This document shows positions 4,090 through 54,294 of a stretch of 64,000 bases of DNA, piece after piece. Source of the stretch: Hyphomicrobiales bacterium (GTDB lineage Bacteria > Pseudomonadota > Alphaproteobacteria > Rhizobiales > Xanthobacteraceae). The notes below the pieces were generated by a model. That model did no database searches, was not told the DNA's origin, and saw only the letters and a list, made by a program, of their open reading frames with translations. Location of the stretch: contig WHTP01000012.1 in NCBI GenBank assembly GCA_009377695.1, forward strand, positions 1 through 64,000, given 5' to 3'. Position numbers and translations under genes: made by a program. How positions within the stretch are numbered: the first letter of the stretch is position 1; the number at the start of each line of letters is the position of its first letter.

Positions 4090-5085
4090 ATGGCTACTAT
4101 CACTGTGAAGTCGTGCTTGCGCTTTGCCGCCGTTCTGATGGGCGGCCTCAGCAGCGTGACGCAGAGCTTCGCGCAAAGCTCCTGCATGTTGCCCCAGGCC
4201 TTTAATGACCCGCACGCGGTCATGCACGATGACCGTTCGCTTTTCTGGGTACGTCCCCTGCAGGTTGATGCGGATGGGTCACCGAACGCCTACCATCGTG
4301 ATGATCCGTACGGAAAACGAGGCTTGGCGATCGAATACATCGGCAATGGAATGACGATATATAAGAATGGCCAACCGATGACGTTTGAGCTGGATGAAAA
4401 GGATAATACGGAATGGCTTTCAATCTATCGCAAGATCGCCGCCAACGGCTGGAAGGCTCCTGCCGGCTATTCCGTTGATATCTATGGCTTTGCACGCAAC
4501 GATCGCGGCGCGGTTTGTATGACGGAACGCGGCCGCCTCATTTCGTCGACCAGCCTTATGTTTGATGCCAACATGCACCCTTGCAATCAGCGCAGGTACG
4601 TCGATGCTCGGAAATTTCCGGGATTTGTCGTACCCAATCGCACGTCGGATGAGCGTGTTGTTGAGAATGCGGACCCCCAAGTTGCTCCTCCCTTCTCCGA
4701 GCGAGGAGTTGGGCGCGGGGACCTCTCGGTTGTCTACAATCCGGACACCGGCTTGTGGAAAGGAGCCATGCTCTACGATACGGGACCGCGTCATCTCTTG
4801 GGCGAAGGCTCGCTCCGGCTTGTCATGAATCTCCGGGGCCTTCAGCAGGTTCCCAAGACCGCCATCAAGCTCAATTCGCTCGGGATCGTTGAGACATTCA
4901 GCGTGACCTTCCCGGGAAGCGCGGCAGATTTGGGTCCGAGTTCAACGTGGACCCCCGAGAAAGTCGAACGTGCCGCCGCCGAAAGATTCAAGGCGTGGGG
5001 TGGGGGATCCTTGACCGGCGCATTGCAGAGAATGTTCGCCTGCGCACAGCAGTACAAAAGTCAGATCCGTGCGTCCGCCCGTTAG
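4090..5085 (+). CDS. secreted protein of unknown function in the polysaccharide locus
   Basis: 331 residues. The start is ATG 4090 with GAGG about nine bases upstream. A signal peptide is plausible: a short charged N-terminus, a hydrophobic stretch and an SFAQS cleavage-like site near residue 29. The mature part has four or more cysteines, several aromatic-rich stretches and no membrane segment. I recognise no family or catalytic motif. Its position between two deacetylase paralogues on the same strand suggests a periplasmic or cell-surface role in handling the same polymer, which is an inference from context. The upstream 300 bases consist mainly of hairpin repeats, so its promoter, if separate from the upstream genes, was not identified. 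Confidence 0.75.
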   Translation: MATITVKSCLRFAAVLMGGLSSVTQSFAQSSCMLPQAFNDPHAVMHDDRSLFWVRPLQVDADGSPNAYHRDDPYGKRGLAIEYIGNGMTIYKNGQPMTFELDEKDNTEWLSIYRKIAANGWKAPAGYSVDIYGFARNDRGAVCMTERGRLISSTSLMFDANMHPCNQRRYVDARKFPGFVVPNRTSDERVVENADPQVAPPFSERGVGRGDLSVVYNPDTGLWKGAMLYDTGPRHLLGEGSLRLVMNLRGLQQVPKTAIKLNSLGIVETFSVTFPGSAADLGPSSTWTPEKVERAAAERFKAWGGGSLTGALQRMFACAQQYKSQIRASAR

Positions 5086-5222
5086 GTGCTGTAACCTGAG
5101 GCTGTTCTCGCGGCGTCGCGGGCAATACTTAACTAAATCGGCGGCTATTAAAGTTAAGACTCAAGAGTTTAGCTTAACCATTCATTCACTCTAGATGGAA
5201 CGCCTAAAGTACCGCACATAAA

Positions 5223-5245
5223 CGTCTAGAAAGACAATCTAGACG
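5223..5245. promoter_or_regulatory. 8-bp perfect inverted repeat at the ribosome binding region of the intact deacetylase
   Basis: CGTCTAGA, a seven-base loop AAGACAA, then TCTAGACG. The right arm touches the CGGGAG Shine-Dalgarno, and the GTG start is 12 bases downstream. This could be a translational hairpin or an operator; neither is proven. The 100 bases before it are AT-rich and probably contain the promoter. Confidence 0.5.
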
Positions 5246-5256
5246 GGAGCGGTCAC

Positions 5257-6051
5257 GTGAAGAGCACCATACGTTTGGCGACCGCGCTCATCGGCGTCTC
5301 GCTCTTTGCAACGTCAGGCGCGTTGGCTGCGCCAAGCTGCGCACATAATCCAAATGCTCTCGGTACCAGCCGCACCATAACAGTATCGCCGGCTGAATTT
5401 CCTTTGGTTGGGAAGGAGCAATATCTTGAGACGCTCCCTTTGCGAGATCGTGAAGTTGTCCTCACGTTTGACGACGGGCCGATCCCCGCGACAACGCCTC
5501 GGATCTTGGAGACTCTCGCCGCGGAGTGTGTAAAGGCGACCTTCTTCATGCTTGGAATGAATGTTGCGGAGGCGCCTAATCTTGCGCGCCGCGCATACGA
5601 TGAGGGCCATACGATCGGAACTCATACCTTCAGTCACCCGACAATCGCCAAGGTTTCGTCGGCTAAGGCGAAACAAGATATCAACTTGGGCATTGAGGCG
5701 CTGACAGAAGGACTTGGACGCACTCGTCGCCTCGCGCCGTTTTTCCGGCCCCCATATCTCTCGATTACAAAGGATATTGAACGATACCTCCTGTCCCGCG
5801 GTCAGATGGTCTGGAGTATTGATGCGGACTCGCTGGACTGGACCTTCACGACTGCTGACAAAATGGTGGAACGCAGCATCGCGGAGCTGGAGCGGGTCGG
5901 CAAAGGCATTCTACTGCTGCACGATATCAAGCCGGTCACTGTTCGAGCGCTTCCCAATTTACTTGCGCAGCTCAAGCTGAAAGGCTTCAGCGTCGTTCAC
6001 GTCGTGCCGGCACCGCTGATCCAATCGACAAGCATTGCGCCCGTGCATTGA
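5257..6051 (+). CDS. NodB-type polysaccharide deacetylase, active-site intact
   Basis: 264 residues; GTG start at 5257 with a GGGAG Shine-Dalgarno. A signal peptide ends near ALAA (residue 25). All NodB-homology motifs are present: TFDDGP (D72 base, D73 metal), HTFSH (H123, H127 metal), RPPY (R164-Y167), DSLDW (around 191-195) and LLLHD (H222). It should remove N-acetyl groups from a GlcNAc-type polymer or oligosaccharide in the periplasm. It shares the N-terminal NPxALGTSR and FPxVGxxQY segments with the two degenerate paralogues on either side, so the three arose by duplication. A separate AT-rich upstream region suggests its own promoter. Confidence 0.9.
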   Translation: MKSTIRLATALIGVSLFATSGALAAPSCAHNPNALGTSRTITVSPAEFPLVGKEQYLETLPLRDREVVLTFDDGPIPATTPRILETLAAECVKATFFMLGMNVAEAPNLARRAYDEGHTIGTHTFSHPTIAKVSSAKAKQDINLGIEALTEGLGRTRRLAPFFRPPYLSITKDIERYLLSRGQMVWSIDADSLDWTFTTADKMVERSIAELERVGKGILLLHDIKPVTVRALPNLLAQLKLKGFSVVHVVPAPLIQSTSIAPVH

Positions 6052-7193: not shown

Positions 7194-8990
7194 CTACGGC
7201 ACGTATCGTCCGCCGATGACCGGCGCGCTGACGCCGTGTCCGGGCAGATCCCAAACGCCGGCGCCGCCGGGATTCTTGTCGGCGCCGATATTGGCGTCGA
7301 TCAGGTAAGGCTTGCCGCTGGCAATAGCGGCGCGCACCGCGTCAGCGAGATCGCCGGGGCGATCGACGCTCACGCCGTCGATGCCGGCCGAGCGCGCCAT
7401 CGCAGCAAAATCAGGATTGTAGGGCGCGCCGGTCATCGGATGCTTGAAGTCAGTGGCAAGCTCGCGGCCGCCGAGATAGCCGCGCTGCAATCCGCGGATC
7501 GAGGCATAGGCGTAGTTGTTCCACACCACCCAGACGACGGGGAGCTGGTACTCGACAGCGGTGCCAAGCACACTCGCGTGCATGAAGAAGGCGCCGTCGC
7601 CGACCACGGCGACACAGGGCCGATCTGGCGCCGCAAGCTTGGCGCCAAGCACGCCGGCGACGCCGAAACCCATCGGCCCGAAGCCCATCGAGCCGATCAG
7701 CGAATCCGGACGCTTCGGCTTGCAGAATTGCAGCAGCCAGTTGTGATGCACACCGATATCGCTGACCAGGATCGCGTCCTCGGGCAGCACGCGGTCGATC
7801 TCGTAGGCGGCGCGCTGCGGGTTGATCGGCGTCGCATCGTCCTTGAAGCCCGGTGCGATCAGCGCGTCCCATTCCTTGCGGTAGCCGTCGATCGCCGTGA
7901 CCCAGCCCTTACGCGCGCTCGCTTGCGCATCGATGTTCTTCCGGCTGCTGAGCTCGGCCAGCACCTGACGCAGGAAGGTACGCACGTCCGCCATCAACCC
8001 GAGCGCGACCGGATAGTTGCGCCCGATCTCCTCGGGATCGATGTCAACGTGGATCAGCTTCGTGGGGGGGATGGTGAAGGAGTAGCCGGGAATCCAGGAA
8101 CTTGAGGTGCGGTCGTCGAAGCGAACGCCCAGCGCCAAGAGCACGTCAGCTTGCCGTGCCGCATGGTTGGCTTGATAGACGCCACCGCGTGACACGAGAC
8201 CGAGTGCGAGCGGATGGTCGCTCGGAATCGCGCCGAGGCCACTAGCTGACGCCGCGACCGGAATTTGCAGTCGCTCCGCGAGCGCAAGCAGTTCGGTTGC
8301 CGCGCCGCCGTAACGCACGCCTTGCCCGACCAGAATCACTGGCCGCCTGGCGCCAAGCAGCATGTCGACCGCCTTGGTCACGCCTTCCGGATCGGCGCCG
8401 CAGCGAGATGAAATGTTGGCGTTCCATTCCTCCGGATTCGGCGTCTCTTCGGCGGCGGCTTCCTTGAAGATGTCGAACGGCACGTCGAGCACCACCGGTC
8501 CCGGCCGTCCGGTGACCATCGTCTTCCAGGCCTGCCGCACCGCCAGCGCCACCATGTCGCCGCGCGTCGGCTGGAACACCTTCTTACACATGGTGCGCAC
8601 GGTCGATGGAAAGTCGGCCTGATAGTGCCGGTAGAGCTCCTGGAACGCGCCGCGGTTGAACTGGCCGGTCGGCACGTTGCCGGTGATCGCCATGAACGGC
8701 ACGGAATCGAGATAGGCATTGGCGAGCGCGATCGGCAGGTTGACCGAGCCGGGGCCGCAGGAGGTGAAAGTCGCGACCGGTCTGCCCGCGACCCGGTAAT
8801 AGACATCGGCCATGAAGCCCGCGACCGTCTCATGGTGCGTCGAGATGGTCTTGATGTCGCTCGAACGCTCGAACAGCGCATCGAGCAACCCGATATTGCC
8901 GTGTCCGCACAGGCCGAAAACGTACGGCACCTTCTCGCGCACGAGATAGTCGACGATGATCTGGCCGCCATTGAGGGTGTTGGTGGTCAT
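7194..8990 (-). CDS. thiamine diphosphate-dependent enzyme of the acetolactate synthase family
   Basis: 598 residues, the usual length of IlvB/POX-type ThDP enzymes. The three domains are visible: the N-terminal pyrimidine-binding domain with the catalytic glutamate in THHETVAGFMAD (about residue 54), the central domain with VGQGVRYGG and HVDIDPEEIG, and the C-terminal diphosphate-binding domain with GDGAFF followed about 26 residues later by NNYAY. No small regulatory ilvN-like gene is adjacent, so a branched-chain biosynthetic role is less likely than a decarboxylase, carboligase or 2-hydroxyacyl-type reaction. A hydroxyacid dehydrogenase gene lies upstream on the same strand, separated by a fold-back element. 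The substrate is not predictable from sequence alone. Confidence 0.85.
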   Translation of the reverse strand: MTTNTLNGGQIIVDYLVREKVPYVFGLCGHGNIGLLDALFERSSDIKTISTHHETVAGFMADVYYRVAGRPVATFTSCGPGSVNLPIALANAYLDSVPFMAITGNVPTGQFNRGAFQELYRHYQADFPSTVRTMCKKVFQPTRGDMVALAVRQAWKTMVTGRPGPVVLDVPFDIFKEAAAEETPNPEEWNANISSRCGADPEGVTKAVDMLLGARRPVILVGQGVRYGGAATELLALAERLQIPVAASASGLGAIPSDHPLALGLVSRGGVYQANHAARQADVLLALGVRFDDRTSSSWIPGYSFTIPPTKLIHVDIDPEEIGRNYPVALGLMADVRTFLRQVLAELSSRKNIDAQASARKGWVTAIDGYRKEWDALIAPGFKDDATPINPQRAAYEIDRVLPEDAILVSDIGVHHNWLLQFCKPKRPDSLIGSMGFGPMGFGVAGVLGAKLAAPDRPCVAVVGDGAFFMHASVLGTAVEYQLPVVWVVWNNYAYASIRGLQRGYLGGRELATDFKHPMTGAPYNPDFAAMARSAGIDGVSVDRPGDLADAVRAAIASGKPYLIDANIGADKNPGGAGVWDLPGHGVSAPVIGGRYVP

Positions 8991-15723: not shown

Positions 15724-15812
15724 TCCGCAACAGGGCGCAGCGCCGCAACAAAACCCGGCGGTGCTGGCGCCCCGCCGGGTTCACAACATTCGGGATTGCG
15801 GCGTTGGCTCGA

Positions 15813-16151
15813 TCAATAGCCCGGGCAGACTTGCACCGGCTGGCCGGTGTAGCCAACGACGCGGCCATACGGGTCGTAGACCGGCTGCGATGCCCAGTAG
15901 CAGCCAGCGTATTGCACCGGCTGACGGTAGCCGTCGTAGACCACATAGCCACGCGGACGCGAGGCGAGGATGGCGCTGCCGATAATTGCACCACCGAGGA
16001 TGCCTGCGGCAATGCCCGGACCCCAGCCCCAGCCGCCGCGGTGGTGATGGTGGTGCCAGTGGCGACGTTGTGCGGCGGCGTCAGTAACCGAAACAGCCAG
16101 CGTGCCGGCGATGGCGGCGGCGCCGACCAAGACAGTCAGTGTCTTTCGCAT
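15813..16151 (-). CDS. small Gly/His-rich envelope protein
   Basis: 112 residues from ATG 16151 with AGGAGA upstream. A signal peptide ends near DAAAQ (about residue 28). A His run (RRHWHHHHHR) and a Gly/Trp stretch follow, then a hydrophobic glycine-zipper-like segment (GIAAGILGGAIIGSAIL). The C-terminal domain has two cysteines and the tyrosine-rich motif YDPYGRVVGYTGQPVQVC. This type is common in Rhizobiales, but I know no defined function. The His run may bind metal, which is an inference. Confidence 0.75.
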   Translation of the reverse strand: MRKTLTVLVGAAAIAGTLAVSVTDAAAQRRHWHHHHHRGGWGWGPGIAAGILGGAIIGSAILASRPRGYVVYDGYRQPVQYAGCYWASQPVYDPYGRVVGYTGQPVQVCPGY

Positions 16152-43528: not shown

Positions 43529-46500
43529 TTAGTCAGCCCCCGCAGTCGCAGGCTCCTTATGCCCAACCGGCATGGCTGTGGGCTTGGGTGCCGGCTTGGG
43601 CGCGGGCTTAGGTGTCGGTGCCGGATCTGACCCGGTCTCCGGCGCGAGGACAGTGCTTCCATGCTGCGCCGCTTCGCCATGCTGCTTCAATGGACGATTG
43701 CCGGTCATTTGTCGCAGCAGGACGTAGAACACCGGCGTGAGGAAGATGCCGAACAACGTGACGCCAATCATGCCTGCGAACACCGCGACTCCCATGGCGT
43801 GACGCATCTCGGCGCCGGCACCGCTCGAATAGACCAGCGGCACGACACCCATCACGAAGGCGAGCGATGTCATCAGGATTGGTCGTAAGCGCAGGCGGCT
43901 GGCCTCGATCGCGGCTTGCACCGGCGTGCGCCCGGCGAATTCCAGTTCGCGGGCGAACTCGACGATCAGGATCGCGTTCTTCGCCGACAGTCCGACCAGC
44001 ACGATGAGGCCGATCTGCGTGAAGATGTTGTTGTCGCCACCGGAGAGCCAGACGCCGGTCATCGCCGCAAGCAGGCCCATCGGCACGATCAGGATGATCG
44101 ATATCGGCAAGGTCAGGCTTTCATAGAGCGCAGCGAGGACCAGGAACACGAGCAGAATGGCGAGCGGATAGACCAGCATGGCCGAACCGCCGGCGAGGAT
44201 CTCCTGGTAGGTCAAATCGGTCCACTCGAAGCTGAAGCCGCGCGGCAAGGTCTCGGCGGCGATCCGCTCGACGGCCGCCTGCGCCTCTCCGGACGAGAAG
44301 CCCGGCGCTGGTCCTCCATTGATGTCGGCCGCGAGGAAACCGTTGTAGCGCATGGCGCGCTCCGGTCCCGAGACGGAATTGACCCTGAGCAGCGCGGCCA
44401 GCGGCACCATCTCGCCGGAAGCCGACCGCACTTTGAGCGCGCCGACGTCGTCGGCACGAGCGCGAAACGGCGCATCGGCCTGCACCCGCACCGAATAGGT
44501 GCGGCCAAACTTGTTGAAGTCGTTCACATAGAGCGAGCCGAGATAGATCTGCAGCGTGTCGAAAACATCGGTTACCGCCACGCCGAGCTGTCGGGCCTTG
44601 GTCCGATCGATGTCGGCATAGAGCTGCGGCACGTTCACCTTGTAGCCGGTGAACAGTCCAGTCAGCTCCGGCGTTGCCGCGGCCTTGGCCATGAAGGCCT
44701 TGGTCGCTTCGTCGAGCGCGCCGTAGCCGAGGCCGGCGCGATCCTCGATCTGGAGCTTGAAGCCGCCGACGGTACCGAGGCCGAGCACCGGCGGCGGCGG
44801 GAATACGGCGATGAACGCCTCCTGGACGGCGGCGAACTTCTGGTTCAATTGACCAGCGATGGCGCCGCCGCTGAGCTCGGCCGTCTTGCGTTCGGCGAAC
44901 GGTTTCAACATCGCGAACACGATGCCGGCGTTTGAGCTGTTGGTGAAGCCATTGATCGACAGGCCGGGGAAGGCGACCGCAGCCTCGACGCCCGGCTGCG
45001 CGAGCACGATGTCCGTCATCCGCCGGATGACATCTTCGGTGCGATCAAGCGTCGCTGCGTCGGGCAGTTGGGCGAAGCCGATGAGGTATTGTTTGTCCTG
45101 GGCTGGCACGAAGCCACCCGGCACGATCTTGAACAGGCCGAAGGTCGCACCGATCAGGATGAGATAGATGCCCATCATCAGTGCCTTGCGAGAGAGAACG
45201 CGCCGCACGCCACCGCCATAGGCCTCCGATCCGCGACGGAAAACGAAATTGAAGCCGCGGAACAGCCAGCCAAACGTACGATCCATGAAGCGGGTCAACG
45301 GATCGGGCGCCGCCCCGTGACCCTTGAGCAGCAGAGCGGACAGCGCCGGCGAAAGCGTCAGCGAATTGATGGCAGAAATGATCGTGGAGATGGCGATGGT
45401 GAGCGCGAACTGCCGATAGAACTGCCCGGTCAAGCCGCTGACGAAGGCTAACGGTACGAACACCGCGACGAGAGCGAGTGCGATCGCAATGATCGGGCCC
45501 GATACTTCGCGCATGGCCTGATAGGTGGCATCGCGCGGTGACAGGCCGGCCTCGATGTTACGTTCGACGTTCTCCACCACGACGATGGCGTCATCGACGA
45601 CGATACCGATCGCCAGCACCAGTCCGAACAGGCTCAACGCATTGATTGAAAAGCCGAACACGTACATCACCGCGAACGTGCCGATGATGGACACCGGAAC
45701 GGCTAGCAATGGGATGATCGACGCCCGCCACGTCTGCAGGAACAGGATCACCACCAGCACGACCAGGGCGATGGCTTCCAGCAGCGTGTGCACTACCGCC
45801 TCGATCGAGGCGCGGACGAATTGCGTCGTGTCATAGGCGATCTGGAAATCCACACCCTCGGGCATGGTCTGCTTGATCTCGGCCATGACCGCGCGCACGT
45901 CTTGCGCAATCTGCAGCGCGTTCGAGCCGGGTGACTGGAACACGCCGATGCCGACCGCAGACTTGTTGTCCAAAAGCGAGCGCAATGAATATTCGGATGC
46001 GCCGAGCTCCAGCCGCGCAATGTCGCGCAGCCGCGTAACCTCGCCATTGAGACCGGTCTTGACGACGATCTCGCCGAACTCTTCCTCGCTTTGCAACCGG
46101 CCCTGGGCATTGATGGAGAGCTGCAGATCGACGCCCTCAGCGTTGGGTGAGGCGCCGACCACGCCGGCAGCGGCCTGCACATTCTGCGCGCGGATTTCGC
46201 GCACCACGTCGCTCGCCGACAGGCCGTGCTCCGCCACCTTCTGCGGGTCGAGCCAGACTCGCATCGAATAGTCGCCGGCACCCCAGATCACGACCTGGCC
46301 GACGCCGTTAACGCGCGCCAGCCGGTCCTTGACGTTCAGCACACCGTAGTTGCGCAGATACGTCATGTCATAGCGGTCGTTCGGGGAGACGAGATGAACG
46401 ACGATGGTGAGGTCGGTGCTGCTCTTGACGGTCGTGACGCCGAGACGGCGCACCTCTTCCGGCAGCCTGGGCTCTGCTTGTGAGACCCGGTTCTGCACCA

Positions 46501-46822
46501 ACTGCTGGGCCTTGTCCGGGTCGGTGCCGAGCTTGAACGTGACCGTGAGCGTCATCAAGCCGTCGGTGGTGGCCTGGCTGCTCATATAGAGCATGTCTTC
46601 AACGCCGTTGATCGCTTCCTCGATCGGCGTTGCCACGGTCTCGGCGATGACCTTCGGATTGGCGCCCGGATATTGCGCGCGCACCACGACCGACGGCGGC
46701 ACGACCTCAGGATATTCCGAGATCGGCATGACGCGCAGCGCCAGCAGGCCTCCCAGCAGAATTAGCACCGACAGGACGCCGGCAAAGATCGGGCGGTCGA
46801 TGAAAAATTTGGATACGTTCAT
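43529..46822 (-). CDS. RND multidrug efflux permease (HAE1 family)
   Basis: 1097 residues with the 12-helix RND layout: one membrane segment at the N-terminus, large periplasmic porter loop, then helices 2-6, repeated. The proton-relay aspartates in IGIVVDDAIVVVENVER (about residue 407) are present. The start MNVSKFFIDRPIFAGVLSVL and GGLLALRVMPISEYPEVVPP are typical of AcrB/MexF/BepE. A Pro/Lys/Ala-rich C-terminal tail of about 45 residues is unusual. It follows the adaptor gene by 32 bases in one operon; an outer-membrane factor gene is absent, so a shared TolC-type channel is needed. Confidence 0.95.
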   Translation of the reverse strand: MNVSKFFIDRPIFAGVLSVLILLGGLLALRVMPISEYPEVVPPSVVVRAQYPGANPKVIAETVATPIEEAINGVEDMLYMSSQATTDGLMTLTVTFKLGTDPDKAQQLVQNRVSQAEPRLPEEVRRLGVTTVKSSTDLTIVVHLVSPNDRYDMTYLRNYGVLNVKDRLARVNGVGQVVIWGAGDYSMRVWLDPQKVAEHGLSASDVVREIRAQNVQAAAGVVGASPNAEGVDLQLSINAQGRLQSEEEFGEIVVKTGLNGEVTRLRDIARLELGASEYSLRSLLDNKSAVGIGVFQSPGSNALQIAQDVRAVMAEIKQTMPEGVDFQIAYDTTQFVRASIEAVVHTLLEAIALVVLVVILFLQTWRASIIPLLAVPVSIIGTFAVMYVFGFSINALSLFGLVLAIGIVVDDAIVVVENVERNIEAGLSPRDATYQAMREVSGPIIAIALALVAVFVPLAFVSGLTGQFYRQFALTIAISTIISAINSLTLSPALSALLLKGHGAAPDPLTRFMDRTFGWLFRGFNFVFRRGSEAYGGGVRRVLSRKALMMGIYLILIGATFGLFKIVPGGFVPAQDKQYLIGFAQLPDAATLDRTEDVIRRMTDIVLAQPGVEAAVAFPGLSINGFTNSSNAGIVFAMLKPFAERKTAELSGGAIAGQLNQKFAAVQEAFIAVFPPPPVLGLGTVGGFKLQIEDRAGLGYGALDEATKAFMAKAAATPELTGLFTGYKVNVPQLYADIDRTKARQLGVAVTDVFDTLQIYLGSLYVNDFNKFGRTYSVRVQADAPFRARADDVGALKVRSASGEMVPLAALLRVNSVSGPERAMRYNGFLAADINGGPAPGFSSGEAQAAVERIAAETLPRGFSFEWTDLTYQEILAGGSAMLVYPLAILLVFLVLAALYESLTLPISIILIVPMGLLAAMTGVWLSGGDNNIFTQIGLIVLVGLSAKNAILIVEFARELEFAGRTPVQAAIEASRLRLRPILMTSLAFVMGVVPLVYSSGAGAEMRHAMGVAVFAGMIGVTLFGIFLTPVFYVLLRQMTGNRPLKQHGEAAQHGSTVLAPETGSDPAPTPKPAPKPAPKPTAMPVGHKEPATAGAD

Positions 46823-46854
46823 GGAAGGCGCCCTTTATAGATGCCGATTCCTGA

Positions 46855-48066
46855 TCAGCGCCGGGCCATGCCGGCAGGTGCCCGCCGTTCAGCCATTGCG
46901 ACAAGTTCGGGTGCGACGAGCGCGCCCGGACGAACGCGCTGCAACCCGTTCACGATGATGCGCTCGCCCGGCTGCAGTCCCTTCGTCACGATCCGCAGAC
47001 CATCGACGAATGCCCCGAGCGTCACTTCGCGGTACGCGGCTTTTTTGTCGTCGCCAACAACCATGACGAATTTCTTGTTCTGGTCGGTGCCGATCGCGCG
47101 CTCGTTGACCATCAGCGCAGGCTCGCTTTTGGTTTGGCCCATCCGCAGGCGGGCAAACTGACCCGGCATCAGGCTGCCGTCGGGATTGTCGAATACTGCG
47201 CGCACGCGCACCGTGCCGCTTCTGGCGTCAACCTGATTGTCGATCAGCTGCAGGTGGCCCTCGAAGGTGGTGCCGTTGCTTGTGCCGGTCACCATCTGTA
47301 CGGGAATGCGATCGATTTGCGCCTCGGCCGCCGTCGATGCCAATGCTTTCAGCGCCCGCATCACCACGTCTTCGTTTGCGTTGAAGCTCGCATAAATGGG
47401 ATCGACCGATACCAACGTCGTCAGCACCGGCGCAGCGGAACCCGCCGACACGAGATTGCCGATCGTGATTTCGAGCTTGCCCACGCGGCCCGATACGGGC
47501 GCGCGAACCTCCGTGTAATTCAGGTTGAGCTGCGCCGATCGCAATGCGGCCTGGGCAGCCTGCAGGTTGCCCTCGGCCTCGCGATACGCGCCGACGCGCT
47601 GGTCAATGCTCGCCTGGGTGATCGCGCCCGAATTCGATTGCTGCAATTGCCGAGCGCGGTCCTGCTCTTTCTTCGCCAGTGTCAGGCGAGCTTCTGCGGA
47701 CACCACTTGCGCGTTGGCACGCTCGACTTCGGCGGCGTAAGGGTCGGGATCAATCGTGATCAGGAGATCGCCAGCCTTCACCAGCGCACCCTCCCGGAAG
47801 TGGACCGTGTGCACGGCACCGGCGACGCGCGGCCGAATCTCGACGCGCTCAACCGCTTCCAGACGACCGGAAAATTCATCCCACAGGGTGATGTCGCGCC
47901 GTTCGACAACAGCGACGGAGACCGGTGTTGCCGCCGGCTGAATATTCGACGGGGTGCTCGACTGTGGGCTGCTATCCGGCATGAACAGCGCGACTGCGCC
48001 TAGGGCTGCAGCCGCAACAACGACCCCCGCTCCCAGCATGGGGCGGCGCAAAGACCGACGGTTCAT
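46855..48066 (-). CDS. RND efflux periplasmic adaptor (membrane fusion protein)
   Basis: 403 residues. An N-terminal membrane segment (VVVAAAALGAVALF) anchors it; the barrel-sandwich (ISL-type) domain (VRPRVAGAVHTVHFREGALV then AGDLLITID), an alpha-hairpin of heptads (ANAQVVSAEARL to LNYTEVRAPVSGRVG) and the beta-barrel domain are all visible. It pairs with the permease directly downstream. Promoter and operator lie in the 123 bases before its start, facing the TetR gene. Confidence 0.93.
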   Translation of the reverse strand: MNRRSLRRPMLGAGVVVAAAALGAVALFMPDSSPQSSTPSNIQPAATPVSVAVVERRDITLWDEFSGRLEAVERVEIRPRVAGAVHTVHFREGALVKAGDLLITIDPDPYAAEVERANAQVVSAEARLTLAKKEQDRARQLQQSNSGAITQASIDQRVGAYREAEGNLQAAQAALRSAQLNLNYTEVRAPVSGRVGKLEITIGNLVSAGSAAPVLTTLVSVDPIYASFNANEDVVMRALKALASTAAEAQIDRIPVQMVTGTSNGTTFEGHLQLIDNQVDARSGTVRVRAVFDNPDGSLMPGQFARLRMGQTKSEPALMVNERAIGTDQNKKFVMVVGDDKKAAYREVTLGAFVDGLRIVTKGLQPGERIIVNGLQRVRPGALVAPELVAMAERRAPAGMARR

Positions 48067-48098
48067 ATTGACATGCTCCCGAAATTCTGTAGTGTTCG

Positions 48099-48130
48099 CT
48101 ACATATGTAGGACTGGACGGGAGCTGTCAA
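48099..48130 (-). promoter_or_regulatory. promoter and candidate TetR operator of the RND operon
   Basis: On the minus strand TTGACA (48130-48125) and CATATG (48107-48102) are 17 bases apart. The -10 lies inside a perfect 12-bp palindrome CTACATATGTAG (48099-48110). A repressor bound there would block the efflux operon. A second, imperfect dyad TCATC-TCAA-GATGA lies at 48160-48173 in front of the tetR start. Confidence 0.55.
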
Positions 48131-48189
48131 GCGACTTATATAGCGATCAGTAAAAAACGTCATCTCAAGATGATGTGAGGGCAAAACCC

Positions 48190-48798
48190 GTGGCAATGGG
48201 ACGTCCCCGAGAGTTCGACGTGGACCAGGCGCTCGACCGGGCGTTGGACGTGTTCTGGCGCAATGGCTACGAGGGGACGTCGATCTCGGACCTGACGGCG
48301 GCGATGCGAATCAATCCGCCGAGTCTCTATGCCGCCTTCGGCAATAAGGCAGGATTGTACCGCAAGGCGCTTGATCGTTACGTCGAGCGACGCACGAATT
48401 TCTGGAACGAGGCGCTGGACGCGCCGACCGCCCGCGGCATGGTCGAACATCTGCTGCGGGAGAGCGCCGATTTCCTGACCGAAGAGTGCAACCCTCCCGG
48501 TTGCATGCTCGTGCGCGGTGCGCTGTCGTGCAGCGAGGCCGAGGAGGCCCTGCAGCGCGAGCTGACCGAACGCCGCACCGTCGGCGAAGTGAAACTGCGG
48601 GAGCGGCTTGAGCGTGCGAAGGCCGAACGAGCGATGCCTGAGGATTTGGACCCGGCCGACTACGCGCGCTACATCATGGTCGTTCTTCAAGGCATGTCAG
48701 TCAGCGCCGCCGGCGGCGCGACGCGGAAAGACCTGCACAAGGTCGCCGATATGGCGCTCCGCGCGTGGCCTGCTGAGGCCGGCGTCCCAGTTCGATAG
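48190..48798 (+). CDS. TetR family transcriptional regulator
   Basis: About 202 residues. The GTG at 48190 has GAGG nine bases upstream; ATG 48196 and GTG 48175 are alternatives. The helix-turn-helix is RALDVFWRNGYEGTSISDLT then INPPSLYAAFGNKAGLYRKA, followed by the ligand-binding helices with a CNPPGCM segment. It is divergent from the RND efflux pair and most likely represses it until an efflux substrate binds. Confidence 0.9.
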   Translation: MAMGRPREFDVDQALDRALDVFWRNGYEGTSISDLTAAMRINPPSLYAAFGNKAGLYRKALDRYVERRTNFWNEALDAPTARGMVEHLLRESADFLTEECNPPGCMLVRGALSCSEAEEALQRELTERRTVGEVKLRERLERAKAERAMPEDLDPADYARYIMVVLQGMSVSAAGGATRKDLHKVADMALRAWPAEAGVPVR

Positions 48799-48917: not shown

Positions 48918-49322
48918 ATGGCTGACGATCACCAGAAGAAGAAGGATGATGAGCTGGTTGCGGAACGCCGTCGCCTGCTCAAACAGGCGATGGCCGGCGG
49001 TATTGTGGGCGTTGCGCTCTTGCCAGAGCGTTGGTTGCGGCCGGTAATTGATTCCGTCATCGTGCCGGCACACGCGCAGACCTCGCCGGGCCAGACAAGC
49101 ACCACGACGGCCGGGCCGGGCACAAGCACGACGAGCACGACACCGCCTCCGTTTACCAGCACCAGCACGACACCGCCTCCATTCACCACCACGCCGCCCA
49201 CGACGACGGCCGGACCGGGCACAAGCACGACACCGCCTCCATTCACCACCACGCCGCCCACGACGACGGGCGGACCGGGCACAAGCACGACACCGCCGCC
49301 GTTCACCACGACGCCACCTTGA
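48918..49322 (+). CDS. exported Thr/Pro-repeat (mucin-like) protein, candidate modification substrate
   Basis: 134 residues from ATG 48918. A charged N-terminus ends in a twin-arginine-like RRRLLKQAMAGG, a hydrophobic stretch and RWLRPVIDSVIVPAHAQTS, a Tat-type export segment with AHA-Q as probable cleavage site. I recall similar KPV(I/V)xSVxLPAHAQTS ends in small exported proteins. The C-terminal ~75 residues are tandem repeats of a Thr/Pro/Gly unit (GPGTSTTPPPFTTTPPTTT), with no Lys, Cys or charged residue, like O-glycosylated linkers. The gene begins the cluster with the nucleotidyltransferase, PqqD-like and kinase-glycosyltransferase genes, 16 bases before the next start. It is the obvious candidate substrate, by inference. 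Confidence 0.75.
   Translation: MADDHQKKKDDELVAERRRLLKQAMAGGIVGVALLPERWLRPVIDSVIVPAHAQTSPGQTSTTTAGPGTSTTSTTPPPFTSTSTTPPPFTTTPPTTTAGPGTSTTPPPFTTTPPTTTGGPGTSTTPPPFTTTPP
49090..49320 (+). repeat. tandem Thr/Pro-coding minisatellite
   Basis: A roughly 60-bp unit (ACAAGCACGACACCGCCTCC then ATTCACCACCACGCCGCCCA) repeats about three times, the last two copies nearly identical, after a shorter partial copy. It encodes GPGTSTTPPPFTTTPPTTT-type repeats. Near identity of the units indicates recent expansion or homogenisation, so copy number may vary between strains. Confidence 0.8.
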
Positions 49323-49338
49323 CTATGATCTGGGAGCA

Positions 49339-50568
49339 ATGGAACGCATTGATCCCAGAACCAGCTCGACACGGCGCCTGAAGCTCCTGGACGGCACCAT
49401 GCAACGGTGCATGAAGCCTTCCGTTGCCGAGCCGACCAGCGCCTACGACATGCTACGAGCTTTGCTTCCCCTTGCGGTCTCGCATGTCCGTGAGCGCGAT
49501 GCAGGCGCGATCGACAGAATTATAGGCTACTGGTGCGTCAACGATCGCGCGTGGAGCTTTTTGGCGGATGAAGCAGAATTTCACGGTGTTACGCCATTGT
49601 TGGCGCCGATGATCATCGCTCGATTCGAAGCTGCGCGAGCTGCGATCCCTGACGACGCACGACGGATCTTCGTGGCCTTGGCAAAACGCCACCAACGCGC
49701 ATCGGTTGCGCGGGAAGCCTGCATCGACCGATTGCTTGCGGCATTCGATGCTGCCAATGTCCCACTGCTGCTGCTGAAGGGCGCAGCGCTGGCGCACATT
49801 CTCTATTCCGCGCCACACCTACGAGCTGCTCTCGATGTCGATGTCCTGATTGATCCTGCTGACGAGGCATGCGCTCGGCAGATCATCCGCATGCTGGGCT
49901 ATTCGTTCCTGCAGGAGCATGAGCCTGGCTTTGCCAGGCAGCACCATCATCTGCCGACAGCCATCACAGAACGGGACGGATTTACAATCGCGTTGGAAAT
50001 TCACCGCGATGCGATGTCTCCGGACCAGCCACACAGCATCACCTTACGAACAATGACGCAACCGCCGCAGATCGTCCATCGTGGCGCCGGGCCATCTGGC
50101 CTTGCATTCGGTCACATCGACATGCTGCATCATTTGGCACGCCATGCGTTCGAGCCCGCATCTCACGTCCGGCTGATCCATTTATACGATCTACTGCTCT
50201 ATCGAACGATATTTCGTGAAGCGATCGATTGGTGCGCTCTTCACAAGCGCCATCCGCATGTCTCGGTCGTCCTGCAACTGGTCGATCAGGTCTTTTCTCG
50301 TGGCGACGACATTGCGAGCCATCCCCGGGACGTTCCGGCCGGGATCGGACTCGGAATGCTGCCGCTGGTGCAGATCGCTGCTGCCGATATCGGGCTGGTC
50401 GCCAAGATGGGAAAGCTGCTCAACCCGCCAGCGTGGTGGCTTCACGGATACTATGGAGTGCCTCCCGGGCGCTCGTTATTATCGTGTCGCGCCGTGCGAC
50501 ATCCGGGGACAGTCGTGCGATGGCTGGGGCGCAGGCTGATGGCACGTGCAACCGCGCGCGCTAACTGA
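49339..50568 (+). CDS. nucleotidyltransferase-family protein (NTP_transf_5-like)
   Basis: 409 residues from ATG 49339 with GGGAG upstream. The nucleotidyltransferase motif is LLLLKGAALAHIL followed by the Asp pair in LRAALDVDVLIDPAD (about residues 163-172), as in the uncharacterised nucleotidyltransferase family often found beside PqqD and HprK-like genes. H-rich segments (RQHHHLP, MLHHLARH) follow. It may transfer a nucleotide or a phospho group to a protein or sugar. The gene is 16 bases after the repeat-protein gene and 44 bases before the PqqD-like gene, consistent with an operon. Confidence 0.75.
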   Translation: MERIDPRTSSTRRLKLLDGTMQRCMKPSVAEPTSAYDMLRALLPLAVSHVRERDAGAIDRIIGYWCVNDRAWSFLADEAEFHGVTPLLAPMIIARFEAARAAIPDDARRIFVALAKRHQRASVAREACIDRLLAAFDAANVPLLLLKGAALAHILYSAPHLRAALDVDVLIDPADEACARQIIRMLGYSFLQEHEPGFARQHHHLPTAITERDGFTIALEIHRDAMSPDQPHSITLRTMTQPPQIVHRGAGPSGLAFGHIDMLHHLARHAFEPASHVRLIHLYDLLLYRTIFREAIDWCALHKRHPHVSVVLQLVDQVFSRGDDIASHPRDVPAGIGLGMLPLVQIAAADIGLVAKMGKLLNPPAWWLHGYYGVPPGRSLLSCRAVRHPGTVVRWLGRRLMARATARAN

Positions 50569-50612
50569 TATCCGTGCCAACAAGCGATCACGGCGGCGCG
50601 ACGGAGGGGGTC

Positions 50613-50891
50613 TTGAAGGGAACAGATCATCGCGTTCTGGCGCCGGCTGCGGGCGTCTTCATCGAAGTGATTGAAGGCGAGTGCCTCGCTTGTCATCCGG
50701 AGCATACACGCGCTTTTTATCTCAATCCAAGCGCGGCCCTGATCTGGGGGTTGTGCGACGGCATCCGATCCACGGACGTTATCTGCCAAATGATCCAGCA
50801 GGGATATCCGGAGGCGCCGACGAGCCTTTGTGATGACGTGGGGGAAACGCTTGTGCGACTTGAGGAGTGCGGGCTTCTTGTCGCCAAGTGA
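50613..50891 (+). CDS. PqqD-like peptide-binding protein
   Basis: About 92 residues from TTG 50613, favoured by GGAGG five bases upstream; a GTG at 50574 gives 105 residues. The PqqD fold is indicated by RAFYLNPSAALIWGLCDG and a C-terminal LVRLEECGLLVAK helix. PqqD-type domains (RRE) bind leader peptides for modification enzymes. Here it could present the Tat-type repeat protein or another peptide to the downstream kinase-glycosyltransferase. Its stop lies one base before the next gene's ATG. Confidence 0.8.
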   Translation: MKGTDHRVLAPAAGVFIEVIEGECLACHPEHTRAFYLNPSAALIWGLCDGIRSTDVICQMIQQGYPEAPTSLCDDVGETLVRLEECGLLVAK

Positions 50892-50892
50892 A

Positions 50893-53800
50893 ATGCAACG
50901 CGCCGTCGTCACTGTCGGTACAAGCCGCGTATCGGTGATCTATCCACGGCTGCTTGGCGAGTATCTCGACGCCCTCGTGGTCAAAAGTGAAGACGATGCG
51001 GTCGTCGTCGCAGATTCTCGCAGTTGGGTCACGCTGGCGGACGACGTAACGCCGGGGCGGTTCTGCGTGATGGCGAGCAACGGCCGCGGCGCCTCGGCCT
51101 TGGACGTGGGAGACGCGCTGGCCGCCTTCTGGGAGCACGTGACCTACCTCCTGATCGATCAACTGACCGATGCGATCGCGTTGCACGCCGCGGCGGTGCG
51201 CTATGGCGACAACCTCGTGCTGCTGCCGGGACCAAGCGGCGCCGGAAAAACGCAGCTGGCGCTTTGGTATCGCGCGCGGGGATTTGCACTCGCAACAGAC
51301 GAGCTCGTGTCAATCGCGGCCATGCACGATGGCGCCGGTCGCTTATGCGTGGGCATGCTTGCCCGGCCGTTCTTTCTGAAAAGCACATTTCGCTCAGCCG
51401 AACTGTTGCCGGCGAGTGGCTCAAAGATTCGGCAGGTGTCGGCTGGCGGCAAGATGCTTTTGATCGATGAGATGTCACCAAGACCCGCGCAACCTCTCGT
51501 CAACGGGTTCATCGTGTTTCCGCGCTATCAAGCGGGGGCATCGCTCCAGATGAGCGCGCTCACCCCGGCGCGAGCCGGCCTGCAGTTGCTCGGACAATGC
51601 GTCAACGTTCGCAATCTTCCGGGAGGAGGCCTAGCGCTCGCTGCCGCGGCCGCCCGCCGCCTTCCGGCGATCTCGCTTCGTTATGGAGATACCGAACAGC
51701 TCGACGGCGCGCTCGACGTGCTGACCCGTCAGATCCTGGCTGCAGTCCCGAGTACCGACGATCTCGCCGCCCTTTGCGGCGGCTTCAATGCGCGTGCGGC
51801 TGCCTCACGCACTCTCGATGTCAATGATGCGCCAAGTGCGCAAGGTCCGACTGTTCCATCCCGACATCAGCCAGCAAGCAAGCGCCGCCTAACGGTCGGG
51901 ATGGCGACCTACGACGAATACGACGGCGTTTACTTCACGGTACAATCGATCCGGTTGCATCATCCGGAACTCGCCGGTGCGATCGAGTTTATCGTCGTCG
52001 ACAACAATCCCGGCGGGCCTTGCTCCGAAGCCCTGAAGAGTTTGGGAGACTGGATTGACGGTTATCGATACATTGCGGTTGGTGAACGGCAGGGAACGGC
52101 TGTTCGTGACGCGGTGTTTGAACATGCGAGCTGCGACATCGTGCTCTGCATGGATCCCCACGTGCTCATCGTCCCAGGTGCCTTGAGCCGGCTTATCGAT
52201 TACTTTCAGGCGACGCCGGACAGCCGCGACCTCGTGCAGGGACCGCTGCTGTATGACGACCTGCGCTCGATATCCACGCACTTTGAACCGCAGTGGCGTG
52301 CCGGTATGTATGGCACGTGGGCATCCGACCCGCGCGGCAGTGATCCCAATTCGCCACCCTTCGACATTCCGATGCAGGGCTTGGGTCTGTTCGCCTGCCG
52401 GCGCGAGGCCTGGCTTGGCTTCAACCGGTCCTTCCGCGGCTTTGGTGGAGAAGAGGGATACATCCATGAGAAATTCCGCAGGCGCGGCGGCCGCACCCTC
52501 TGCCTGCCGTTCCTACGTTGGCTCCATCGCTTCGCCCGGCCGCTTGGGCCGCCGTATGTGAACCGATGGGAGGACCGCATCCGAAATTACTTCATCGGGT
52601 TGACCGAACTCGGGTTTGAAACGACCGAGATGGAGGCCCATTTCGCTGAGGTGTTGGGCGCGGACGTTGTGAAGCCCATTCTGGCAAACATCCGCGCGAC
52701 GATGCCGACACACGTTCCAGCGCCCGCTGGTAATGCGATCAGATCGGACGTTATACGGCCGTCCGAGGAAGTCTATAGCCCTCATAATTTTTCATTCGGC
52801 GATCAGTGGGCGACGATCAATTTCTATCTCAATATGTCTGTGATGAAGCGCCAGCGCATCAGGCTGGCGTCAGTCCTGAATGGCGTGAGCCTTCACCGTT
52901 TGCACAAGGAAATCTTGGATGTCCTTGATAGCCCAGGCGAGATCGAACTGACGCTCGCTGAGCCGACGGTCGGCGTTGATGGCTACAATGTGTGGAATGC
53001 TCCGTATTTCCCCACCAAGAATCGATGGGACGCCAGCAGACGACACAAATACGTCTGTATGCAGTTCGATGGCCAGTCCTTCGGCCAGGTCAAAAACCCC
53101 ACCTTGGAAGAAGAACGTTTGATCCGGCGTTTCTTGCAAGACCGCTGTCATGGCCTTGCGCCGATGATTTTGGGCAAGCACTTGAGCGTGCAAGAATGCG
53201 TGGATATTGCCACCGACAGTGCGCTGTTTGTTGGCGTCGATTCAGGGATGTCGCATCTGTGCCATTCGGTTGGCGTTCCGATTTTCCTGCTGGAGTATAG
53301 CCTTCCCACTGTCACCGCGCATAACGGCAAGACGCATATTCTGTGCAAGGGCTATGATGATTTTGCAAGCCGCTTTGACCGTTACGTAAATTACCTTCAC
53401 GCCGCCGGCCTACCTGACGCCTTGGACATCGGCAAACCCGGTCAGGAACTCGCCGCGGCTCCCACGCCATCGGTCTTGCCTGCAGGCGCAATCGGTCAAG
53501 CTCAAAATAAATCCTTCTGCCGGTCGCTCGCCGCTCGAGACATCCCAACTGCCACTGATGTTTGTTGCGGTCAGCATGCGATCAGACAAGTCCTGTCGCT
53601 GTTCACCCCTCGTGCGGTTGTCGGTCATTCCAAGGCCAGAATAGGGGGCGAGTGCGACGGTGGCTACGTCATGATCGACGATCTGCAAGACGTTCAAGTC
53701 TGCTACTCGTTCGGCATTGGATTTGATGTCAGTTGGGATGTCGATATGGCGCAACGCGGCGCGACGGTCTTTCAGTACGATCATACGGTGGCGGCGCCGC

Positions 53801-54294
53801 GTCAGCCGCATGCAGCGTTCTGTTTCCGTCAGATAGGAATTGCTCCGGCCGACGGCGACAATATGAGGACGCTTCAGTCGCTGCTGAACGAGAACAAGCA
53901 TTCTTCCGACAAGGAGATGATCCTCAAGATCGACGTGGAGGGTGCGGAGTGGGACGTGTTCGACCATGCGCCGTCCCATGTGCTCGGTCATTTCAAGCAG
54001 ATTGTTTGCGAGTTTCACGGCCTTGCGGAACTGCGAGATCGGCGCTGGTGCGAGCGCGCCACGCGCGTACTGGTCAAGCTTGCAAATACCCATGCACCGG
54101 TGCATGTGCATGGCAATAATTTCGGGTCTTTCAATATCGTTGACGGCGTCCCGGTGCCGGACGTCCTCGAAGTCACTTATGTGCGACGCTCAAGCTATTC
54201 CTTGGAGCCCAGTGCCGAATCCTTTCCGACAGTGCTCGACCGGCCGAATAACCCAAGTGCTTCCGACGTATACCTTGGAAGGTTCGCGTTTTAG
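50893..54294 (+). CDS. four-domain fusion: HprK-like kinase, GT2 glycosyltransferase, GT9-like region, FkbM-like methyltransferase
   Basis: 1133 residues from ATG 50893, one base after the PqqD stop; GTG 50830 or TTG 50878 are other starts. Domain 1 (about 1-290) resembles HPr-kinase-related kinase A: P-loop GPSGAGKT (113-120), then ATDELVS (D136). Domain 2 (about 332-560) is GT2: LTVGMATYDEYDGVYFTVQS, FIVVDNNPGG, CMDPHV, GFGGEEGY. Domain 3 (about 640-860) resembles GT9 heptosyltransferases: FVGVDSGMSHLCHSVGVPIF. Domain 4 (about 910-1133) is FkbM-like: GGECDGGYVM, MILKIDVEGAEWDVFDH, VCEFHG. The four suggest phosphorylation, two sugar transfers and methylation on one acceptor. I know of no described protein with this order. 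There is no frame break, so it is not an artefact of a missing stop. Confidence 0.8.
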   Translation: MQRAVVTVGTSRVSVIYPRLLGEYLDALVVKSEDDAVVVADSRSWVTLADDVTPGRFCVMASNGRGASALDVGDALAAFWEHVTYLLIDQLTDAIALHAAAVRYGDNLVLLPGPSGAGKTQLALWYRARGFALATDELVSIAAMHDGAGRLCVGMLARPFFLKSTFRSAELLPASGSKIRQVSAGGKMLLIDEMSPRPAQPLVNGFIVFPRYQAGASLQMSALTPARAGLQLLGQCVNVRNLPGGGLALAAAAARRLPAISLRYGDTEQLDGALDVLTRQILAAVPSTDDLAALCGGFNARAAASRTLDVNDAPSAQGPTVPSRHQPASKRRLTVGMATYDEYDGVYFTVQSIRLHHPELAGAIEFIVVDNNPGGPCSEALKSLGDWIDGYRYIAVGERQGTAVRDAVFEHASCDIVLCMDPHVLIVPGALSRLIDYFQATPDSRDLVQGPLLYDDLRSISTHFEPQWRAGMYGTWASDPRGSDPNSPPFDIPMQGLGLFACRREAWLGFNRSFRGFGGEEGYIHEKFRRRGGRTLCLPFLRWLHRFARPLGPPYVNRWEDRIRNYFIGLTELGFETTEMEAHFAEVLGADVVKPILANIRATMPTHVPAPAGNAIRSDVIRPSEEVYSPHNFSFGDQWATINFYLNMSVMKRQRIRLASVLNGVSLHRLHKEILDVLDSPGEIELTLAEPTVGVDGYNVWNAPYFPTKNRWDASRRHKYVCMQFDGQSFGQVKNPTLEEERLIRRFLQDRCHGLAPMILGKHLSVQECVDIATDSALFVGVDSGMSHLCHSVGVPIFLLEYSLPTVTAHNGKTHILCKGYDDFASRFDRYVNYLHAAGLPDALDIGKPGQELAAAPTPSVLPAGAIGQAQNKSFCRSLAARDIPTATDVCCGQHAIRQVLSLFTPRAVVGHSKARIGGECDGGYVMIDDLQDVQVCYSFGIGFDVSWDVDMAQRGATVFQYDHTVAAPRQPHAAFCFRQIGIAPADGDNMRTLQSLLNENKHSSDKEMILKIDVEGAEWDVFDHAPSHVLGHFKQIVCEFHGLAELRDRRWCERATRVLVKLANTHAPVHVHGNNFGSFNIVDGVPVPDVLEVTYVRRSSYSLEPSAESFPTVLDRPNNPSASDVYLGRFAF

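Follow-up and report, generated by a model that had tools for sequence, protein, structure and literature searches.

The described gene set closest to the one considered here is the cassette known in NCBIfam as the HPr-rel-A system, in which an HprK-related kinase (TIGR04352), a PqqD family peptide chaperone (TIGR04353) and a nucleotidyltransferase (NTase) stand together. At positions 48918–54294 of a 64,000-nucleotide stretch of Hyphomicrobiales DNA (the whole stretch is called the window below), a PqqD-like protein, an HprK-like kinase and an NTase likewise occur together, downstream of a small protein with a Thr/Pro-repeat core and a leader of the twin-arginine translocation (Tat) type. A small Tat-like protein is also found upstream in the HPr-rel-A cassette of Sphingomonas (L139; such codes denote individual loci). 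The window differs in that its kinase is fused to GT2 and GT9-like glycosyltransferase (GT) domains and to a methyltransferase, and in its repeat core. Judged by the features seen in these cassettes here, which are not an official definition, the window has the NTP_transf_5 protein and the small Tat-like protein. Its layout resembles that of a member, but it is not filed as one because it misses both curated cut-offs, those of TIGR04352 and TIGR04353. The kinase model TIGR04352 matches 93 of 398 sampled Pseudomonadota genomes at E ≤ 1e-12, with 60 above the cut-off. Searches of the open-licence part of PMC for the function of the HPr-rel-A cassette, for the HprK-related kinase, and for PqqD with twin-arginine and HPr kinase found no paper, which does not imply absence from print; wider searches returned lasso peptide papers or unrelated ones. 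As far as this literature goes, the window is a variant of an uncharacterised kind of cassette, and since the parent's kinase and PqqD already have names in NCBIfam, the "candidate new system" of the first-pass annotation was an overstatement.

The same gene types, namely an HprK-type kinase, an NTase and a PqqD-type leader binder, act on a ribosomal peptide in the clusters for the phosphoglycosylated lasso peptides paeninodin and pseudomycoidin. PsmK is reported to phosphorylate the C-terminal Ser of pseudomycoidin, and the NTase PsmN to add one or two hexoses to the phosphoSer, a host glycosyltransferase being noted as a possible contributor (PMC9266682; PMC8498205). Leaders in lasso systems are described as bound by PqqD-type B1 proteins (PMC7533575). 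By analogy, PsmK and PsmN, the latter described as an NTase, provide the chemical precedent for the steps proposed below. Unlike the lasso clusters, the window has a Tat-type leader and a long repeat core.

The cluster consists of four tightly packed open reading frames (ORFs), all on the + strand. The gaps of 16, 44 and 1 bases given in the first-pass annotation are borne out, the value of 44 holding if the PqqD-like gene starts at TTG 50613 and becoming 5 if it starts at GTG 50574. The first gene (48918..49322) encodes a 134-residue protein, the candidate substrate. Its leader (48918..49076) has a charged N-terminus, the motif RRRLLK, two hydrophobic stretches around PERWLRP, and the end AHA. 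Tat signals are marked by a twin-arginine motif, a hydrophobic stretch and an AxA site; all of these are present and the source genome encodes TatC. By these motif rules, the protein is probably exported. The core (49077..49319) has 35 Thr among its 81 residues, and its DNA contains a 60-bp tandem repeat at 49159–49315 (2.6 copies, 94% matches). The Tat-like leader and Thr-rich repeat of the earlier description are thus both present.

The second gene (49339..50568) encodes an NTP_transf_5 protein, matching PF14907 with an E value of 1.2e-26 (94.3 bits, cut-off 31.2). The motifs KG and DVD, which we take to be typical of this family, are seen by eye and align with those of the NTase of locus L040. 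The third gene (50613..50891 from the TTG start) encodes the PqqD-like protein, which matches PF05402 at 2.7e-12 (47.3 bits, cut-off 23.4). An NCBIfam scan gave no match of this protein to TIGR04353 at E ≤ 0.1 (cut-off 35 bits), a model that does detect the PqqD of L139 (60.1 bits) and of L102 (40.0 bits). Sequence searches of the PDB with the NTase, the PqqD-like protein and the GT9 part of the fusion returned nothing meaningful.

The fourth gene (50893..54294) encodes the fusion of 1133 residues. The kinase domain (about residues 1–310; 50893..51822) matches TIGR04352 at 2.3e-15 with 56.5 bits (58.6 in the genome search) against a cut-off of 200. It has the P-loop GPSGAGKT at residue 113, the His of LHAAAV, and TDE. 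Its profile matches HPr kinase 1ko7 at 7.8e-5 with His, P-loop and Asp aligned, so that the active-site residues of HPr kinase, namely the P-loop, the preceding His and the following Asp, are kept. The window kinase thereby carries the motifs of the HPr kinase family, and activity is predicted. A structural model of residues 1–609 is of modest confidence, with a mean predicted local distance difference test score (pLDDT) of 64.9. Residues 1–310 of it align with ATP-dependent phosphoenolpyruvate carboxykinase (Z 13.8, root-mean-square deviation (rmsd) 4.9, 280 residues), a fold that we take to be related to HPr kinase. This enzyme is listed for the kinase part, and HPr kinase itself is absent among the 50 matches listed.

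The GT2 domain (about residues 328–609; 51874..52719) matches PF00535 at 1.2e-10 (42 bits, cut-off 23.3) and is 54–65% identical to the GT2 of seven related fusions (L042–L048). In the model it aligns with GT-A glycosyltransferases: with RmlT at Z 14.7 (rmsd 4.1, 190 residues), with GalNAc-T2 at Z 13.8 (rmsd 3.3, 149 residues), tied with RmlT within 1, and with TarS and TarP at Z 13.5 and below. The window thus shares with mucin-type O-glycosylation by GalNAc-T2 both this fold alignment and Thr/Pro-rich acceptor-like repeats, a likeness that is tied with many other GT-A enzymes, comes from a low-confidence model, and implies no family membership. A GT9-like segment (residues 741–797; 53113..53283) matches PF01075 at 2.7e-4 with 20.8 bits, below the cut-off of 22, and the predicted model there has a pLDDT under 50. 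The C-terminal domain (about residues 894–1133; 53572..54291) matches FkbM models below their cut-offs (19.2 versus 22.7 bits for PF05050 in Pfam; 25.8 versus 37.7 for TIGR01444 in NCBIfam), and has nine homologues with 34–48% identity over the aligned part. Its approximately 240 residues are modelled at a pLDDT of about 90 with a class I methyltransferase fold, and the 50 structural matches listed fall on this part, nearly all of them to methyltransferases or spermidine synthases; the best has Z 10.3 (rmsd 3.3, 164 residues). A methyltransferase domain is supported because this confident model aligns nearly only with folds of the methyltransferase type. Of the kinase–GT2–GT9–FkbM fusion of 1133 residues originally proposed, then, the kinase, the GT2 and a methyltransferase fold stand, the GT9 part is weak and the FkbM matches stay below the cut-offs.

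Loci of related kinases frequently have a Tat-like small protein as well. For finding the leaders, a loose regular expression proved useless, as it matched many out-of-frame ORFs, and a profile with a null set was used instead. The first profile was made from 16 leaders of 12 loci, picked by eye; the null set comprised 17 arbitrary stretches, one each from 17 of the genomes, 172,661 bases altogether. When each locus was left out in turn, the held-out peptide ranked first and outscored every one of the 1309 null ORFs at 11 of the 12 loci (L108 failed); the window peptide, its own locus held out, scored 11.8 bits against a best null of 6.7. Five of 17 loci outside the profile had a match above the null (L105, L107, L109, L110 and L111; L105 and L107 are congeneric with L106). 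With the profile fixed, four of five plasmid loci, which were located through the similarity of their kinases and taken one per genus from 11 records, were above the null (those of Sphingomonas, Vibrio, Parasedimentitalea and Rhizobium, not that of Methylosinus). Among 40 Pseudomonadota loci retrieved before their peptides were seen, 26 scored above the top one of 1449 null ORFs (7.3 bits); 19 of these 26 encode the peptide on the same strand as the kinase and no more than 1 kb upstream of it. A couple of chance matches are expected because the 40 loci are together about twice as long as the null set and the null came from other genomes. A second profile, of 51 leaders, recovers L108, L176, L199 and L206. 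In a Pfam scan of 10 of the peptides one exceeded its curated cut-off (Peptidase_S74, L118), and in an NCBIfam scan of six none did.

A gene set related to the window cluster is in genome G270, which bears L042. Here one 10-kb stretch has an NTase, two PqqD-like domains, a kinase, a kinase–GT2 fusion and four paralogous peptides whose leaders are closely similar and whose cores diverge, a pattern that would fit a family of precursors. The window leader is 37–45% identical to these four leaders, with 18 invariant columns that include RR, LK, W, P and PAHA. A leader search of 297 genomes gave some match at E ≤ 1 in 177 but at E ≤ 1e-3 only in the source genome and G270. The proposal that repeat protein and fusion belong together was open to the finding that their homologues never co-occur; it survived, since the only other genome with a matching leader has four such peptides beside a kinase–GT2 fusion, NTase and PqqD. 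At E ≤ 1e-4, a search for more leaders of precisely the W-[KR]-P type matched the source genome alone among 385 genomes of the class, G270 being unmatched. Given G270 and the null comparisons, a chance neighbourhood of peptide and enzymes is unlikely. Between two of the leader peptides of L042, a short ORF (15770–16042) resembles the start of the kinase only, which suggests duplication of peptide–kinase pairs.

As for the fusion itself, no span of all four domains was among the matches listed from other genomes in searches of 101 and 397 genomes (overlapping sets, with a few candidate places scored per genome). Kinase–GT2 matches at E ≤ 1e-20 occur in seven other genomes of the 397, which belong to the same taxonomic order, at 40–49% identity, and a tblastn search of plasmids with the kinase–GT2 query gave no match. 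One contig scan with residues 1–609 found two Bryobacterales loci with the reversed order, GT2 then kinase. In one of them, L040, a 152-residue ORF between the NTase and the GT2–kinase fusion consists of a PqqD-like domain (by eye), then TRRQVF...AHAQ, then the Thr/Pro tail NPPPATTASATTPGPTN. This single ORF, whose Tat-like segment is judged by eye, suggests that PqqD and peptide may work together. The source genome has a second cluster (L087, contig C84, 6115–10761) with a PqqD–kinase ORF, an NTase, a glycosyltransferase weakly like SunS, and a leader peptide whose core is made of collagen-like Gly-Pro-Thr/Gly-Ala-Thr repeats. Two further loci vary the theme. In L118, of the same genus as the window, the leader peptide (7637–8071) has KR replacing RR, carries a Peptidase_S74 chaperone domain at its C-terminus, and adjoins a kinase, a PqqD-like ORF, a GT and an NTase. 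In L119 a Tat-leader protein (5020–5337) ends in long Arg-Ser repeats (RSKSRSRSK) that resemble those of SR proteins. An HprK-like kinase and PqqD are encoded next to it, and the protein is an attractive candidate for Ser phosphorylation.

The proposal that the four genes together produce a protein modified under the guidance of its leader and exported through Tat seems to us evenly poised between true and false, and the interpretation of the first-pass annotation is, overall, partly supported. In the proposed scheme, the PqqD-like protein would hold the leader of the repeat protein and deliver it to the fused enzyme, whose HprK-like domain would use ATP to phosphorylate side-chain hydroxyls of the Thr-rich core. 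Sugars would be attached, either to the phosphate or to Thr itself, by the NTP_transf_5 protein and by the GT2 (and GT9-like) domains, and methylation by the FkbM-type domain would perhaps cap the glycan. The finished protein would leave by Tat and be cleaved at AHA, giving a mucin-like phosphoglycopeptide outside the cell. Modification before export is the economical reading because all the enzymes would use cytoplasmic donors, and Tat suits it because Tat exports finished proteins. The broader proposal is somewhat less secure, and we lean slightly against it: HprK-like kinase, PqqD and NTP_transf_5 would form a widespread, unrecognised modification class that phosphoglycosylates small proteins, the Tat signal doubling as the recognition leader and the modified protein leaving via Tat. 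The window would be its elaborate form, in which a kinase/GT/methyltransferase assembly-line protein works on a mucin-like repeat. Should this be true, Tat export would be joined to leader-guided peptide modification, and bacteria would have a route to phosphoglycosylated mucin-like proteins. The pairing with a Tat-like small protein already gives a concrete candidate substrate to a cassette that has names but, in the literature searched, no function.

Several results weigh against these proposals. The pairing is not universal, as 14 of the 40 Pseudomonadota loci had no peptide above the null, and one of the 26 matches (L182, 7.8 bits) was judged spurious. The second profile also gave 21.8 bits to an ordinary 515-residue Tat-type null ORF; the leaders are therefore Tat signals in kind, and they may be without a PqqD-specific signal. 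L040 and L041 had no leader match with the first profile, and the PqqD–peptide ORF of L040 scored −8.5 with the second. L087 may be a broken cluster, since its kinase match falls in two reading frames, through either mutation or a sequencing error. The case for a GT9 domain is weak. L118 has a GT in the cluster, yet a Thr-poor core. Lastly, no PqqD or NTase match (window queries) and no leader peptide was found at the kinase–GT2 fusions of L043–L048.

A single modification site is a possible but unlikely alternative to the modification of many Thr residues. The kinase and NTP_transf_5 protein would act on one Ser or Thr, on whose phosphate the GT2, GT9-like and methyltransferase domains would build one capped glycan, the repeats serving as a stalk. 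PsmK and PsmN, as noted, are reported to act on a single C-terminal Ser (PMC9266682; PMC8498205), and Butyrivibrio lasso clusters are described as likewise combining kinase, NTase and GT2 (PMC7533575). In addition, Thr cannot in general be densely modified, as many cassette peptides have Thr-poor cores. However, the window protein ends in FTTTPP and lacks the C-terminal Ser that lasso peptides use, and cores are Thr-rich where the window-type GT2 is present. The Thr fraction of the core is 0.44 in the window, 0.26 in L087, 0.22 in L040, 0.19 on average in L042 and 0.05 in L118, the remaining loci averaging 0.06. The mean over the three loci with a window-type GT2 is 0.28, and that over the 48 others 0.067 (p 0.0004 by permutation); grouping the five loci with any GT noted gives a p of 0.0001. 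Both tests are post hoc, on 51 loci with a recognised peptide, some of them close relatives, the others having been scanned for some kinds of glycosyltransferase but not all; L118 runs counter to the trend.

Nor does the window look like a lasso cluster. In tblastn searches with one query each, the best match of the window to the lasso B2 protease had an E value of 0.27 and none to Asn synthetase reached E ≤ 1, whereas both are detected in L203 by these queries, at 32–33% identity; on these two queries, a lasso identity was set aside. Among the 40 Pseudomonadota loci, an Asn-synthetase-type match is present in eight, L203 and seven others (L175, L178, L179, L180, L188, L194 and L211). Of these eight, only L203 also matches B2, and it has no leader peptide; in the seven others the match lies near the cassette without B2, and some cassettes with a leader peptide thus have an Asn-synthetase homologue nearby. 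By eye, the same kinase type has a lasso-type B2 protease gene beside it in L113 and an Asn-synthetase gene in L114, and both loci also have a sulfotransferase-like gene. Because lasso-like loci (L113, L114 and L203) carry the same kinase, this kinase type has links to ribosomal peptides in at least two settings.

It is similarly doubtful that a glycan or lipid of the cell surface is the target of the fused enzyme, with the repeat protein as an unrelated or structural neighbour. The fold matches of the GT2 include the wall teichoic acid transferases RmlT, TarS and TarP, and the kinase–GT2 fusions that are without a leader peptide can stand beside genes for outer-membrane-like proteins: by eye the adjoining gene is of this type in L043, L044, L045 and L047, and of three neighbours tested in Pfam that of L045 had a barrel match, those of L043 and L047 none. 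But the kinase of these six fusions is damaged. The conserved His is lost in L043–L047 and the P-loop is damaged in L047 and L048, whereas both are kept in the window, the peptide-linked kinases of L042, and L040 and L041. The GT2 can therefore persist without a working kinase, and in L043–L048 it may have another acceptor, a second life of the domain. The recurrence of the peptide across kinase loci also argues against a mere neighbour.

It is very unlikely that PqqD and the kinase serve as Tat export quality control, by leader chaperoning and regulatory phosphorylation of an undecorated core: the leaders do resemble general Tat signals, and are alike where the cores are very diverse, but the NTase, glycosyltransferase domains and methyltransferase of the cluster would be left unexplained.

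Likeness to the SynChlorMet cassette is limited to weak matches, of the window PqqD to ScmD (20.9 bits) and of the L139 kinase to ScmC (23.2 bits), both far below the cut-offs of 100 and 125. Directly upstream of the window cluster, at 43529–48798, are ordinary neighbours, genes for an RND efflux pump (read by eye) and its adaptor, with a divergent TetR regulator gene beside the pump (TetR_N in Pfam, 4.3e-10). Another neighbour, read by eye, is an MFS gene.

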